Shown here in pieces: positions 33,739 to 36,833 of a DNA stretch of 64,000 nucleotides. Both the position numbers and the translations under genes were made by a program. The notes beneath the pieces were generated by a model. That model saw only the letters and a program-made list of their open reading frames with translations, was not told the DNA's origin and made no database searches. Origin of the DNA: Streptomyces sclerotialus (GTDB lineage: Bacteria > Actinomycetota > Actinomycetes > Streptomycetales > Streptomycetaceae); contig NZ_JBFOHP010000002.1 in assembly GCF_040907265.1 (NCBI RefSeq), positions 2,938,501 through 3,002,500 of the forward strand. Reading direction: 5' to 3'. Numbering within the stretch: the first letter of the stretch is position 1; each line of letters starts with the position of its first letter.

Positions 33739-36621
33739 TCAGGCCGGAACGATGTTGACCAGCTTCGGCGCCCGGACGATCACCTTGCGGATGCCGGCAC
33801 CGCCCAGTGCCGTCACGACCGCGGGCTCGGCCAGCGCCGCCGCCTCCAGGTCCGCGTCCGAGATGGACGGCGAGACCTCCAGACGGGCCTTGACCTTGCC
33901 CTTGATCTGCACGACGCAGGTCACGGTCTCGTCGACGACGTACGCCGGGTCGGCCTCCGGGAAGTCCGCGTACACCACGGTCTCGGTGTGGCCCAGCTTG
34001 CGCCACAGCTCCTCGCCGATGTGCGGAGCCAGCGGCGCGACCAGCAGCACCAGCTTCTCGGCGACGGAGCGCGGGACCCTGCCGCCGGACTTCGTCAGGT
34101 GGTTGTTCAGCTCCGTGATCTTGGCGATCGCGGTGTTGAAGCGCAGTCCGGCCATGTCCTGACGGACGCCGTCGATGGTCTTGTGCAGGACCCGCAGCGT
34201 GTCCTCGTCCGGCTCGGTGTCCACGACGGTGACCTCACCGGTGGCCTCGTCCACGACGTTGCGCCACAGGCGCTGCAGCAGACGGTACTGGCCGACGACG
34301 GCGCGGGTGTCCCAGGGACGCGAGACGTCCAGCGGGCCCATCGCCATCTCGTACAGCCGCAGCGTGTCGGCGCCGTACTCCTGGCAGATCTCGTCCGGGG
34401 TGACGGCGTTCTTCAGGGACTTGCCCATCTTGCCGAGGACGCGGCTGACCTTCTCGCCCTGGTAGTAGAACTTGCCGTCGCGCTCCTCGACCTCGGCCGC
34501 CGGGACCGCGATGCCACGCTTGTCCCGGTACACGAAGGCCTGGATCATGCCCTGGTTGTACAGCTTGTGGAACGGCTCGCGGGACGCGATGTGCCCCAGG
34601 TCGTGCAGCACCTTGGTCCAGAGGCGGGCGTACAGCAGGTGCAGCACGGCGTGCTCGGCGCCGCCCACGTACAGGTCGACACCGCCGTGCGGCTGGCCTT
34701 CGCGCAGGCCCATCCAGTACTGCTCGTTGGCCGGGTCGACCAGCTTCTCGGCGTTGTTCGGGTCCAGGTAGCGCAGCTCGTACCAGCAGGAGCCGGCCCA
34801 GTTGGGCATGGTGTTGGTCTCACGGCGGTAGCGCCGCACGCCCCGGCCGTCACCCAGGTCCAGGTCGACGTTGACCCACTCCTCGTTCCGGGACAGCGGG
34901 GTCTCCGGGGAGGTGTCGGCGTCGTCCGGGTCGAAGGTGCGCGGGGAGTAGTCCTCGACCTCGGGCAGCTCCAGCGGCAGCATCGACTCGGGCAGCGCGT
35001 GCGCCACGCCGTCCTCGTCGTACACGATCGGGAAGGGCTCGCCCCAGTAGCGCTGCCGGCTGAACAGCCAGTCGCGCAGCCGGAAGTTCACGGTGCCCTC
35101 GCCGATGCCCTGGACGCCCAGCCACTGGGTGATCCGGGTCTTGGCCTCGGCGACCGACAGGCCGTCCAGGGAGATCGCGTCGGAGGAGGAGTTGACGATC
35201 TTCGCGTCGTACGAGGAGAAGGCGTCGTCCCAGGTGGACGGGTCGGTGCCGCGGTCGTCCGAGGGCTCGACCACGCAGCGCATGGGCAGCTCGAAGGCGC
35301 GCGCGAAGGCGAAGTCACGGCTGTCGTGCGCCGGGACGGCCATGATCGCGCCGGTGCCGTAGCCCATCAGGACGTAGTCGGCGATGAAGACCGGGACCTG
35401 CTCGCCGCTGACCGGGTTGGTCGCGTACACGCCGGTGAAGACGCCGGTCTTGTCCTTGGCCTCGGCCTGGCGCTCGACGTCGGACTTCGAGGCGGCCTGC
35501 TTGCGGTACGCGGCGACGGCCTCGGCCGGGGTGGCGTATCCGCCGGTCCACACGTCGTGCGTGCCCTCGGGCCACGCGTCCGGAACGATCGAGTCCTCGC
35601 CGGAGACCAGGTCGTGCTCCGGGGCCAGCACCATGTAGGTCGCGCCGAACAGGGTGTCCTGGCGAGTGGTGAAGACGGTGATGTGCTGGCCGTCGCCCAC
35701 GGGGAAGTCGACCCGCGCGCCCTCGGAGCGGCCGATCCAGTTGCGCTGCTGCAGCTTGATCGCCTCGGGCCAGTCCAGCCCGTCCAGGTCCTCCAGCAGG
35801 CGGTCCGCATAGGCGGTGATGCGCATGTTCCACTGGCGCAGCTTGGACTTGAAGACCGGGAAGTTGCCGCGCTCGGAGCGGCCCTCGGCGGTGACCTCCT
35901 CGTTGGCCAGGACGGTGCCCAGGCCCGGGCACCAGTTGACCGGCGCGTCGGAGGCGTACGCCAGGCGGTACTCGCCCAGGACGTTGGCGCGCTCGAGGGC
36001 GCTCAGGTCGGCCCACGCGCGGCCGTCGGGGGTCTCCCGCTCGCCCGCCTCGAACTGGGCGACCAGCTCGTCGATCGGGCGTGCCTTCCTGGCCTCGGTG
36101 TCGTACCAGGAGTTGAAGATCTGCAGGAAGATCCACTGGGTCCACCTGTAGTACGCCGGGTCGATCGTCTCGACCGAACGGCGCTGGTCGTGGCCCAGGC
36201 CCAGGCGGCGCAGCTGCGCCTTCATGTTGACGATGTTGGCCTCGGTGGAGACCCGGGGGTGGGTGCCCGTCTGGACGGCGTACTGCTCGGCGGGCAGGCC
36301 GAAGGCGTCGAAGCCCAGGGTGTGCAGGACGTTGTGGCCCGTCATGCGCTGGAAGCGGGCGAAGACGTCGGTGGCGATGTAGCCCAGGGGGTGGCCGACG
36401 TGCAGACCCGCACCCGAGGGGTACGGGAACATGTCCATGACGAACTTCTTCGGCCTGTTCACCAGCTCCGGGTCGCCGGCCAGGTCACCGCTGGGGTTCG
36501 GCGCCTCGTAGGTGCCGTTCTCGTCCCAGAAGTCCTGCCAGCGTGCCTCGATGTCCGCGGCCAGCGCGGCCGTATAGCGGTGCGGGGCCGCCGCCTCGGC
36601 GGCCGTGGTCGTCTCGCTCAT
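33739..36621 (-). CDS. leuS: Leucyl-tRNA synthetase
   Basis: 960 residues from the ATG at 36621. Class I aminoacyl-tRNA synthetase: HVGH (residues 74-77) is the HIGH motif, the editing (CP1) domain lies in the middle ([14 protein letters not shown]), KMGKS at about 731 is the KMSKS loop, followed by the anticodon-binding and C-terminal domains. Charges tRNA-Leu. The transcript has a long 5' leader with a short ORF and a terminator (see below), so leucine-dependent attenuation is likely. A frame extending to 36720 is the terminator region, not coding. Confidence 0.97.
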
Positions 36622-36703
36622 CGTCCCAAAAGCTCCATCGATCGTCTCTGCCTGCGGAAACGCACCCCTTGCGGGCACCTTCTTGCCGGTCGGCGCCGGA
36701 AAC

Positions 36704-36728
36704 AAAAAGGCCCCTCGCACAGGAGGGG
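36704..36728 (-). terminator. Intrinsic terminator in the leuS leader
   Basis: In the RNA: CCCCUC / GAGGGG stem (6 bp, 6-nt loop), then GG(CC) and a run of five U. Sits between the leader ORF and leuS, 83 nt before the leuS start. This U-tract is rare in this genome, where other terminators lack one. Confidence 0.8.
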
Positions 36729-36749
36729 ACGCCGCGCCGATTCCGACTC

Positions 36750-36770
36750 GGACCTCGCAGTCTCCGGTCC
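36750..36770 (-). promoter_or_regulatory. Pause or anti-terminator hairpin in the leuS leader
   Basis: GGACC / GGTCC stem with an 11-nt loop, just after the leader ORF and before the terminator; it or a longer pairing partner could block the terminator when the ribosome stalls at the Leu codons (inference). Confidence 0.45.
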
Positions 36771-36782
36771 GGTCGGTACTGA

Positions 36783-36821
36783 TCAGCGCGGCCCGCTAAG
36801 CAGAAGGCGTACGGCACGCAT
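36783..36821 (-). CDS. leuS leader peptide (12 residues, three Leu codons)
   Basis: [12 protein letters not shown], then TGA. The Leu codons CTT-CTG-CTT are consecutive; the two CTT codons are rare in this high-GC genome. The ORF begins 200 nt before the leuS start and is followed by a pairable hairpin and a U-rich terminator, the classic arrangement of a transcription attenuator that reads charged tRNA-Leu. Low Leu-tRNA would stall the ribosome in the LLL stretch and let leuS be transcribed. No Shine-Dalgarno; the possible -10 (36828-36833) lies only 6 nt from the ATG, so leaderless translation is possible. Confidence 0.72.
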
Positions 36822-36827
36822 GGCGTC

Positions 36828-36833
36828 AGGGTA
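36828..36833 (-). promoter_or_regulatory. Candidate -10 box of the leuS transcript
   Basis: TACCCT, 6 nt before the leader-peptide ATG; no good -35 was found at 16-18 bp. Weak on its own. Confidence 0.35.

Follow-up and report, generated by a model that had tools for sequence, protein, structure and literature searches.

In the 64,000-nt stretch of Streptomyces sclerotialus DNA analysed here (the window), we read the region upstream of leuS as a leucine leader-peptide attenuator orthologous to LeuL2 of Streptomyces lividans, with a steric step as the favoured mode of action, and assign this reading a probability of roughly 0.6. The leuS attenuator itself is correctly identified and, for Streptomyces, already known. 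A 2005 study predicted classical candidate attenuators (leader ORF, antiterminator and terminator) in front of leuS for both S. avermitilis and S. coelicolor (PMC1262725), and an RNA-seq study of S. lividans from 2021 described LeuL2 as a leaderless leader peptide followed by a hairpin and uridines (PMC8079986); the view of the initial annotation that no such leader had been assigned to leuS is thereby superseded. LeuL2 precedes the same gene at the same position as the leader in the window, and the two peptides differ at one residue. As far as the accessible text of the two reports goes, they cover three species and a classical attenuator or a hairpin with uridines (PMC1262725, PMC8079986). 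The present analysis adds a structural variant, in which a non-overlapping stem (P1) stands at a fixed spacing, and a much wider spread. Among the matches listed in our literature search, there was no report of a leuS leader outside Streptomyces. A comparative study from 2010 with overlapping authorship (Lopatovskaya et al.) may list further leuS cases. That study is cited in PMC4833913.

Table 1 Features of the leuS leader region, in window positions
Feature	Position	Strand	Evidence and remarks
leuS, leucyl-tRNA synthetase, predicted regulated gene	33739..36621	-	NCBIfam TIGR00396 leuS_bact, 888.8 bits, E 3.6e-267
Leader peptide ORF	36783..36821	-	12 codons plus stop; seen in 30/30 Streptomyces-genus loci read
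Three putative regulatory Leu codons, CTT CTG CTT	36798..36806	-	Third codon is CTT in 78/84 leaders
Predicted -10 element, TACCCT	36828..36833	-	Position relative to leader ATG; TANNNT count in 95 leaders
P1 stem, 5' arm, GCCGCGCTGAT	36782..36792	-	Folding, covariation; overlaps stop codon, begins 5 nt past third Leu codon
P1 stem, 3' arm, ATCGGCGCGGC	36731..36741	-	Folding, covariation
P2, variable apical hairpin within P1	36743..36776	-	Folding; includes the hairpin of the initial annotation
Terminator hairpin, CCCCTC-CTGTGC-GAGGGG	36711..36728	-	2 nt past P1; stem CCCCTC/GAGGGG
U-rich terminator tail, CCTTTTTGTTT	36700..36710	-	Follows terminator stem

The leader ORF lies approximately 200 bases 5' of the leuS start on the same minus strand and reads, from 36821 to 36783, ATG CGT GCC GTA CGC CTT CTG CTT AGC GGG CCG CGC TGA. 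The initial annotation had given the correct coordinates for this ORF with its CTT CTG CTT run and for the terminator stem with its U tail, and its remark on rare Leu codons also holds, as the window leuS uses CTG 75 times, CTC three times and CTT not once. Among 84 aligned leaders, the third Leu codon was CTT in 78, CTC in five and CTG in one. As in LeuL2-type leaders, the ORF has 12 codons, its peptide ends in (E/G)PR and it stands directly 5' of leuS. The hallmarks of a ribosome-mediated attenuator, namely a run of cognate codons in a short ORF and an intrinsic terminator between this ORF and the gene, are both present; the E. coli thr, leu, trp and his leaders likewise place regulatory codons, a stop codon and an intrinsic terminator before the first gene.

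The promoter context is that expected of a leaderless transcript. A TANNNT motif begins 12-13 nt 5' of the start codon in 87/95 leaders and was found in 0/95 further upstream, in a control interval of 25-33 nt from that codon (95 of 104 leaders were counted, the other nine having neither ATG nor GTG at the matched start). With TACCCT well placed just 5' of the ATG in the window, the predicted transcription start coincides with or adjoins the leader ATG and is thus expected at the ORF, rather than downstream of it; the start itself has been mapped in S. lividans only. Conservation of the ORF and its Leu codons in relatives, a check proposed in the initial annotation, was borne out in the 84 aligned leaders and in 30/30 Streptomyces-genus loci, read from among 36 genomes of the genus that had a leuS match. 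There, an ORF with three consecutive Leu codons was followed by a terminator and the positions of ORF, P1 and terminator were mostly invariant.

The conserved structural core is P1, whose 11 pairs (36792-36782 with 36741-36731) join the end of the ORF, including its stop codon, to the sequence just before the terminator. Folding of 36704-36800 was better than that of 200/200 shuffles (z -3.54), and that of the whole leader (36700-36821) had a z of -2.46, with 3/200 shuffles equally good. Two segments that lack the P1 5' arm, 36700-36785 and 36700-36772, folded no better than shuffles. The hairpin that the initial annotation had proposed at 36750-36770 exists and forms merely the tip of P2; the P1 base below it had been overlooked. 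P2 is variable in sequence. Six of its pairs change on both sides among the 30 Streptomyces leaders, so that pairing is kept by double changes, with some pairs broken in some of these rows; in many leaders outside Streptomyces P2 is reduced to a short loop. We therefore rejected the 36750-36770 hairpin as the regulatory stem, since it belongs to this variable part. Attenuation of leuS by a leader peptide, as initially claimed, is well supported by conservation; the idea was not new and the structure given for it was incomplete, so that the claim stands in part. Neither the window leader nor any of 14 related loci matched an Rfam family at gathering score. A T-box riboswitch was rejected, there being no Rfam T-box match and only one chance match (E 7.9) in a permissive search.

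Covariation supported P1 and the terminator across the 84 aligned leaders. This alignment (A2) drew three leaders from the 30 of Streptomyces and 81 from a set of 95 references; the 14 references outside it were mostly close relatives of kept rows and included L088 as well as L159 and L161, in which the parser saw no terminator and no P1, respectively. Both partners change in 12 of the 18 P1 and terminator pairs, pairing holds in 94.5% of cells, and 0/500 shuffles reached any of five covariation measures. When the partner was slid by 1-3 columns, pairing fell to at most 55.2%. Pairing was weakest at the outermost pair of the terminator and the innermost pairs of P1, with 22, 20 and 16 of 84 rows unpaired. 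Most A2 sequences had been picked by a structure-based search, which favours pairing, and 60 matches to a sequence-only pattern (Leu codons and P1 5' arm, without the P1 3' arm or terminator), searched in named genome contigs, served as an independent check. The P1 3' arm adjoined a C-rich terminator arm in 60/60 of these matches, and both variable pairs were kept in 56/60, compared to a shuffled mean of 39.6 and a maximum of 47 in 2000 shuffles. In Nocardioides and others the ORF ends earlier, at TAG, yet P1 is present and reads GCCGCGTCG/CGACGCGGC; P1 is therefore not a by-product of coding.

The geometry of the leader was close to fixed. The gap between the third Leu-position codon and P1 was 5 nt in 84/84 aligned leaders, while the two residues after this codon occurred in 29 combinations, and the linker from P1 to the terminator core was 0-4 nt in 84/84. 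Between the two strands of the eight outer P1 pairs lay 12 to 56 nt. A free search parsed 127 leaders and counted 124, including the cimA leader L144 (L144 and the leuC leader L146 stand outside the 95 references); L146 and L159 were dropped for want of a parsed terminator and L161 for want of P1. The Leu-P1 gap was then 5 nt in 97 leaders, 4 in 19 (equivalent to one additional pair at the stem base), 3 in three and 1 in one, with no Leu run found in four. The P1-terminator linker was 0 nt in 63, 1 in 29, 2 in 27 and 3 in three, and slightly negative, i.e. overlapping, in just two. The leuS leader L283, with a gap of 2 nt, was an exception, and L250 gave no geometry.

We investigated the occurrence of the leader at increasing taxonomic breadth using covariance model R1. 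Leaders were detected in 392/394 genomes of the family, representing all 17 genera, in 119/119 genomes of an order sample (including 15 that belong to other families) and in 73/197 genomes of a class sample (16 of them same-genus). The two same-genus genomes G406 and G413 had no leader in the fetched loci (L239, L240, L248, L249) at E up to 0.1. Their best leuS-probe match, which may not be a true leuS, was only ~45% identical; this low identity suggests that leuS was replaced along with its leader. When 76 divergent R1 matches were fetched, leuS was next downstream in 73; the remaining three preceded cimA, leuC and, in one case, a contig end after 39 nt. The 60 matches to the sequence-only pattern fell in 59 stretches, and 57 of them preceded leuS, the other three having <350 nt of DNA remaining downstream. 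These matches included Nocardioides, Jiangella, Actinopolymorpha, Amycolatopsis, Streptoalloteichus, Actinokineospora, Luteimicrobium and several Streptosporangiaceae assemblies. The broader model R2 matched 113/197 genomes and 62/90 genera of the class sample and 27/396 genomes of a phylum sample, counts that include ilvB, cimA and leuA leaders and hence do not describe leuS alone. The leader is not universal, as R2 found nothing in 84/197 class genomes. A genus outside the class yielded R2 matches in four genomes, and 4/4 of these preceded leuS (L270-L273). Two Actinopolymorpha species carried two leader copies each, every copy being followed by a leuS match (L207; L179 and L215); in L207 the copies lie at 564 and 3377, 2.8 kb apart. 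A contig filed under a Chloroflexi assembly (L175) bears an actinobacterial-type leader and leuS, probably through a binning error.

Related leaders were found in front of other branched-chain amino acid genes. Among 42 loci checked, with representatives named using NCBIfam, leaders preceded ilvB in 16, cimA in 11, leuA in four and leuC in one. None of the five query genes was matched at L265, L277 or L279; on inspection by eye L265, which adjoins a tRNA, seems to be a chance hit. The ilvB and cimA leaders have the same layout as the leuS leaders. The P1-terminator linker was 0 nt in 10/11 cimA leaders and 1 nt in the other, and -1 to 2 nt in 15 ilvB leaders; the gap past the branched-chain codon run was 5-6 nt in 10/11 cimA leaders and 1-7 nt in ilvB leaders, depending on which codon is counted last. 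The cimA (citramalate synthase) leaders carry Ile-rich runs, such as MFYGLLIIGRRAG and MTIHRIIIARRVG, followed by stem and terminator as in leuS (L251, L256, L257, L258, L261, L267, L268, L281, L286, L288 and L144), and among the matches listed in the literature search there was no report of cimA leaders. L146 has a Leu-rich leader, MRTVLLLLSGRDETSF, before leuC (3-isopropylmalate dehydratase), in which the parser found no terminator. The published LEU element of leuA resembles the leuS leader in having a leader peptide with a Leu run and then a stem, and differs from it in having no obvious terminator in the account available (PMC1262725).

From this layout we infer how the leader would respond to leucine. 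RNA polymerase would start at the leader ATG and a ribosome would load on the leaderless mRNA. With ample charged Leu-tRNA, the ribosome would reach the stop codon and cover the P1 5' arm, and the terminator would fold alone and end transcription early. With charged Leu-tRNA in short supply, it would stall at the Leu codons, P1 would fold and RNA polymerase would read into leuS. Leucine shortage would thus be predicted to raise leuS, because P1 forms on an early stall and not at the stop codon, provided that P1 opposes termination. In the steric step, folded P1 would leave a path of just 11-15 nt between the stalled codon and the terminator, a length on the margin of what closure of the hairpin requires. 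We favour this step because P1 does not compete with the terminator for bases; as almost no leaders share bases between the two, P1 should not act through the strand exchange seen in E. coli trp.

Ensemble folding was calculated for a ribosome on Leu1, Leu2, Leu3 or the stop codon or absent. For the footprint, a front edge at 15 nt, counted from the first nucleotide of the codon in the P site, was used. A ribosome stalled with Leu1 in the A site would accordingly have its front edge ~1 nt before P1, and with the stop codon in the A site 6 nt or more of the P1 5' arm lie under it in 84/84 leaders. The mean probability of P1 in the 84 leaders was 0.99 with Leu1, 0.65 with Leu2 and 0.09 with Leu3 in the A site, and inner P1 pairs exceeded 0.5 in 80, 80 and 43 of 84 leaders, respectively. 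P1 therefore folds fully only with a stall on Leu1, yet among the rare codons the third, CTT, is the most constant, which counts against the model. The path from the Leu1 codon to the terminator via folded P1 was 11-15 nt in 84/84 leaders, and that from the stop codon with P1 open was 20-64 nt (median 30). Published work indicates that ~10-15 nt free between A site and hairpin permit full folding and that termination efficiency is maximal beyond ~27-30 nt from the stop codon (PMC4824070). By these figures, and with E. coli ribosome and polymerase sizes, the 11-15 nt path appears compatible with a steric block although borderline, lying inside the 10-15 nt band rather than clearly below it. Regulation by the S. 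coelicolor ilvB leader was unaffected when its regulatory codons were changed, as cited in PMC1262725, and this result also counts against the mechanism because ilvB leaders share the layout of the leuS leaders.

We determined whether the terminator arms pair with the upstream leader better than with shuffled leaders, at a cut-off of z < -2 and with shuffles that keep base composition only. For the terminator 5' arm, the mean z in the 84 leuS leaders was +1.19 and 0/84 had a significant upstream partner; in a repeat run the minimum was -1.44, with 5/84 below 0 and 1/84 at or below -1.14. The 3' arm had a mean z of +0.42 and fell below -2 in 2, 1 or 0 of 84 leaders, depending on the run and arm definition. 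The 5' arms of 15 ilvB leaders (mean z +1.18; one 3' arm -2.91) and 11 cimA leaders (+0.56) behaved like those of leuS. In contrast to the leuS average, the E. coli controls were all negative (thr -5.50, trp -2.08, leu -1.98, his -1.14), and since only 2/4 of them pass -2, the test can miss a real antiterminator. By a test that is not fully sensitive, then, no base-paired antiterminator using a terminator arm, as in E. coli trp, was detected. The classical attenuator layout seen in the initial annotation is thus present in part: the terminator 5' arm lacks a significant upstream partner in the 84 leaders and the hairpin that had been named is not the conserved part.

Classical attenuation, in which, as in E. 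coli trp, one arm of the terminator is taken up by an alternative antiterminator of which P1 forms just a part, is accordingly judged quite improbable here. The 2005 paper does state that antiterminator and terminator hairpins lie upstream of leuS (PMC1262725), and the his control at just -1.14 shows how our arm-pairing test could overlook one. A survey of every helix that pairs in 90% or more of the 30 Streptomyces leaders, made to find strand-exchange candidates, gave GCGCGG/CUGUGC, UUAGCG/CGCUGA and GUGCCGU/GCGGCGU as conserved alternatives that compete on paper with P1 or the terminator. In a transcript ending short of the full terminator, GCGCGG/CUGUGC reached a probability of 0.54 for a ribosome on Leu3 and 0.17 for one on the stop codon. 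In the full transcript it and UUAGCG/CGCUGA had probabilities near zero, and both were rejected as strand-exchange antiterminators; GCGCGG/CUGUGC is also lost, by eye, in leaders with the loop CUGAGC. The terminator stayed folded in every ribosome state, with a mean of 0.99 in the 30 Streptomyces leaders and 0.83-0.88 in the 84 leaders (<0.5 in 9 to 12 of 84, which is probably explained by a shift of the terminator columns that some rows carry here and in the arm-pairing test), and base pairing therefore does not predict antitermination.

Two further explanations leave base exchange aside. P1 itself could be the antiterminator, stacked on the terminator base so that the last pairs cannot close in the RNA exit channel, with or without a ribosome nearby, the ribosome merely deciding whether P1 forms. 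The prevalence of linkers of 0, 1 or 2 nt fits this idea, as does the C. glutamicum ilvBNC leader, in which mutations support a competition between the neighbouring antiterminator and terminator hairpins at the foot of their stems (PMC11857589). A GCC trinucleotide is common to these two C. glutamicum hairpins, however, whereas overlap was almost absent from our leaders, and equilibrium folding lets P1 and the terminator coexist; we regard this explanation as unlikely. The terminator may alternatively sense general translation or start-codon loading, i.e. growth rate or ribosome supply, with the Leu codons conserved for some other reason. The leaderless layout of nearly all leaders would suit such a sensor, and so would the S. 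coelicolor ilvB leader, whose codons could be changed without regulatory effect (PMC1262725). Against it, the codon run suits the gene, being Leu before leuS, leuA and leuC, an Ile-Leu-Val mixture before ilvB and Ile-rich before cimA, and the third Leu codon is so consistently the rare CTT, which makes this explanation as improbable as classical attenuation.

Compared with published systems, the leuS leader is closest, among the arrangements found, to C. glutamicum ilvBNC (PMC11857589). Both the ilvBNC leader and the Corynebacterium ilvB-II motif also have a short ORF with branched-chain codons in or before the first stem and an adjacent terminator (PMC11857589, PMC10272879). According to the accessible text of these sources, the Corynebacterium antiterminators share a trinucleotide with the terminator or use its right shoulder, whereas leuS P1 abuts the terminator and shares bases with it in 2/124 leaders. 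Shared boundary bases, which mark the 'fast' attenuator of C. glutamicum, are accordingly not a feature of the leuS leaders, whose linker is 0-3 nt in 122/124. E. coli pyrBI responds to UTP through polymerase speed and is not known to have a stem that brings a far-upstream stalled ribosome next to the terminator. The physical effect is the same as in the favoured steric step, since at pyrBI a ribosome close behind RNA polymerase stops the terminator from folding (PMC4824070).

An RNA leader of rigid geometry that has no Rfam entry thus precedes leuS in many actinobacterial genera, beyond Streptomyces. If no strand exchange takes place, attenuation can act by positioning a stalled ribosome, and such a mechanism could bear on why the S. 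coelicolor ilvB codon changes lacked effect. As a tentative and somewhat unlikely generalisation, the leuS, ilvB and cimA leaders may represent a widespread actinobacterial design without strand exchange, in which the stem serves as a ruler that sets the stalled ribosome against RNA polymerase. The stem, 5 nt past the codons and against the terminator, would let a stalled ribosome block closure, and a moving ribosome would break it, leaving the terminator to function.

Directly before leuS in the window (36638-36618) lies a largely conserved block, GGCAGAGACGATCGATGGAGCTT, which holds a mini-ORF beginning ATG GAG CTT. This mini-ORF encodes MEL followed by a stop codon in 19/30 Streptomyces-genus loci; in the window it encodes MELLGR and overlaps the leuS start.
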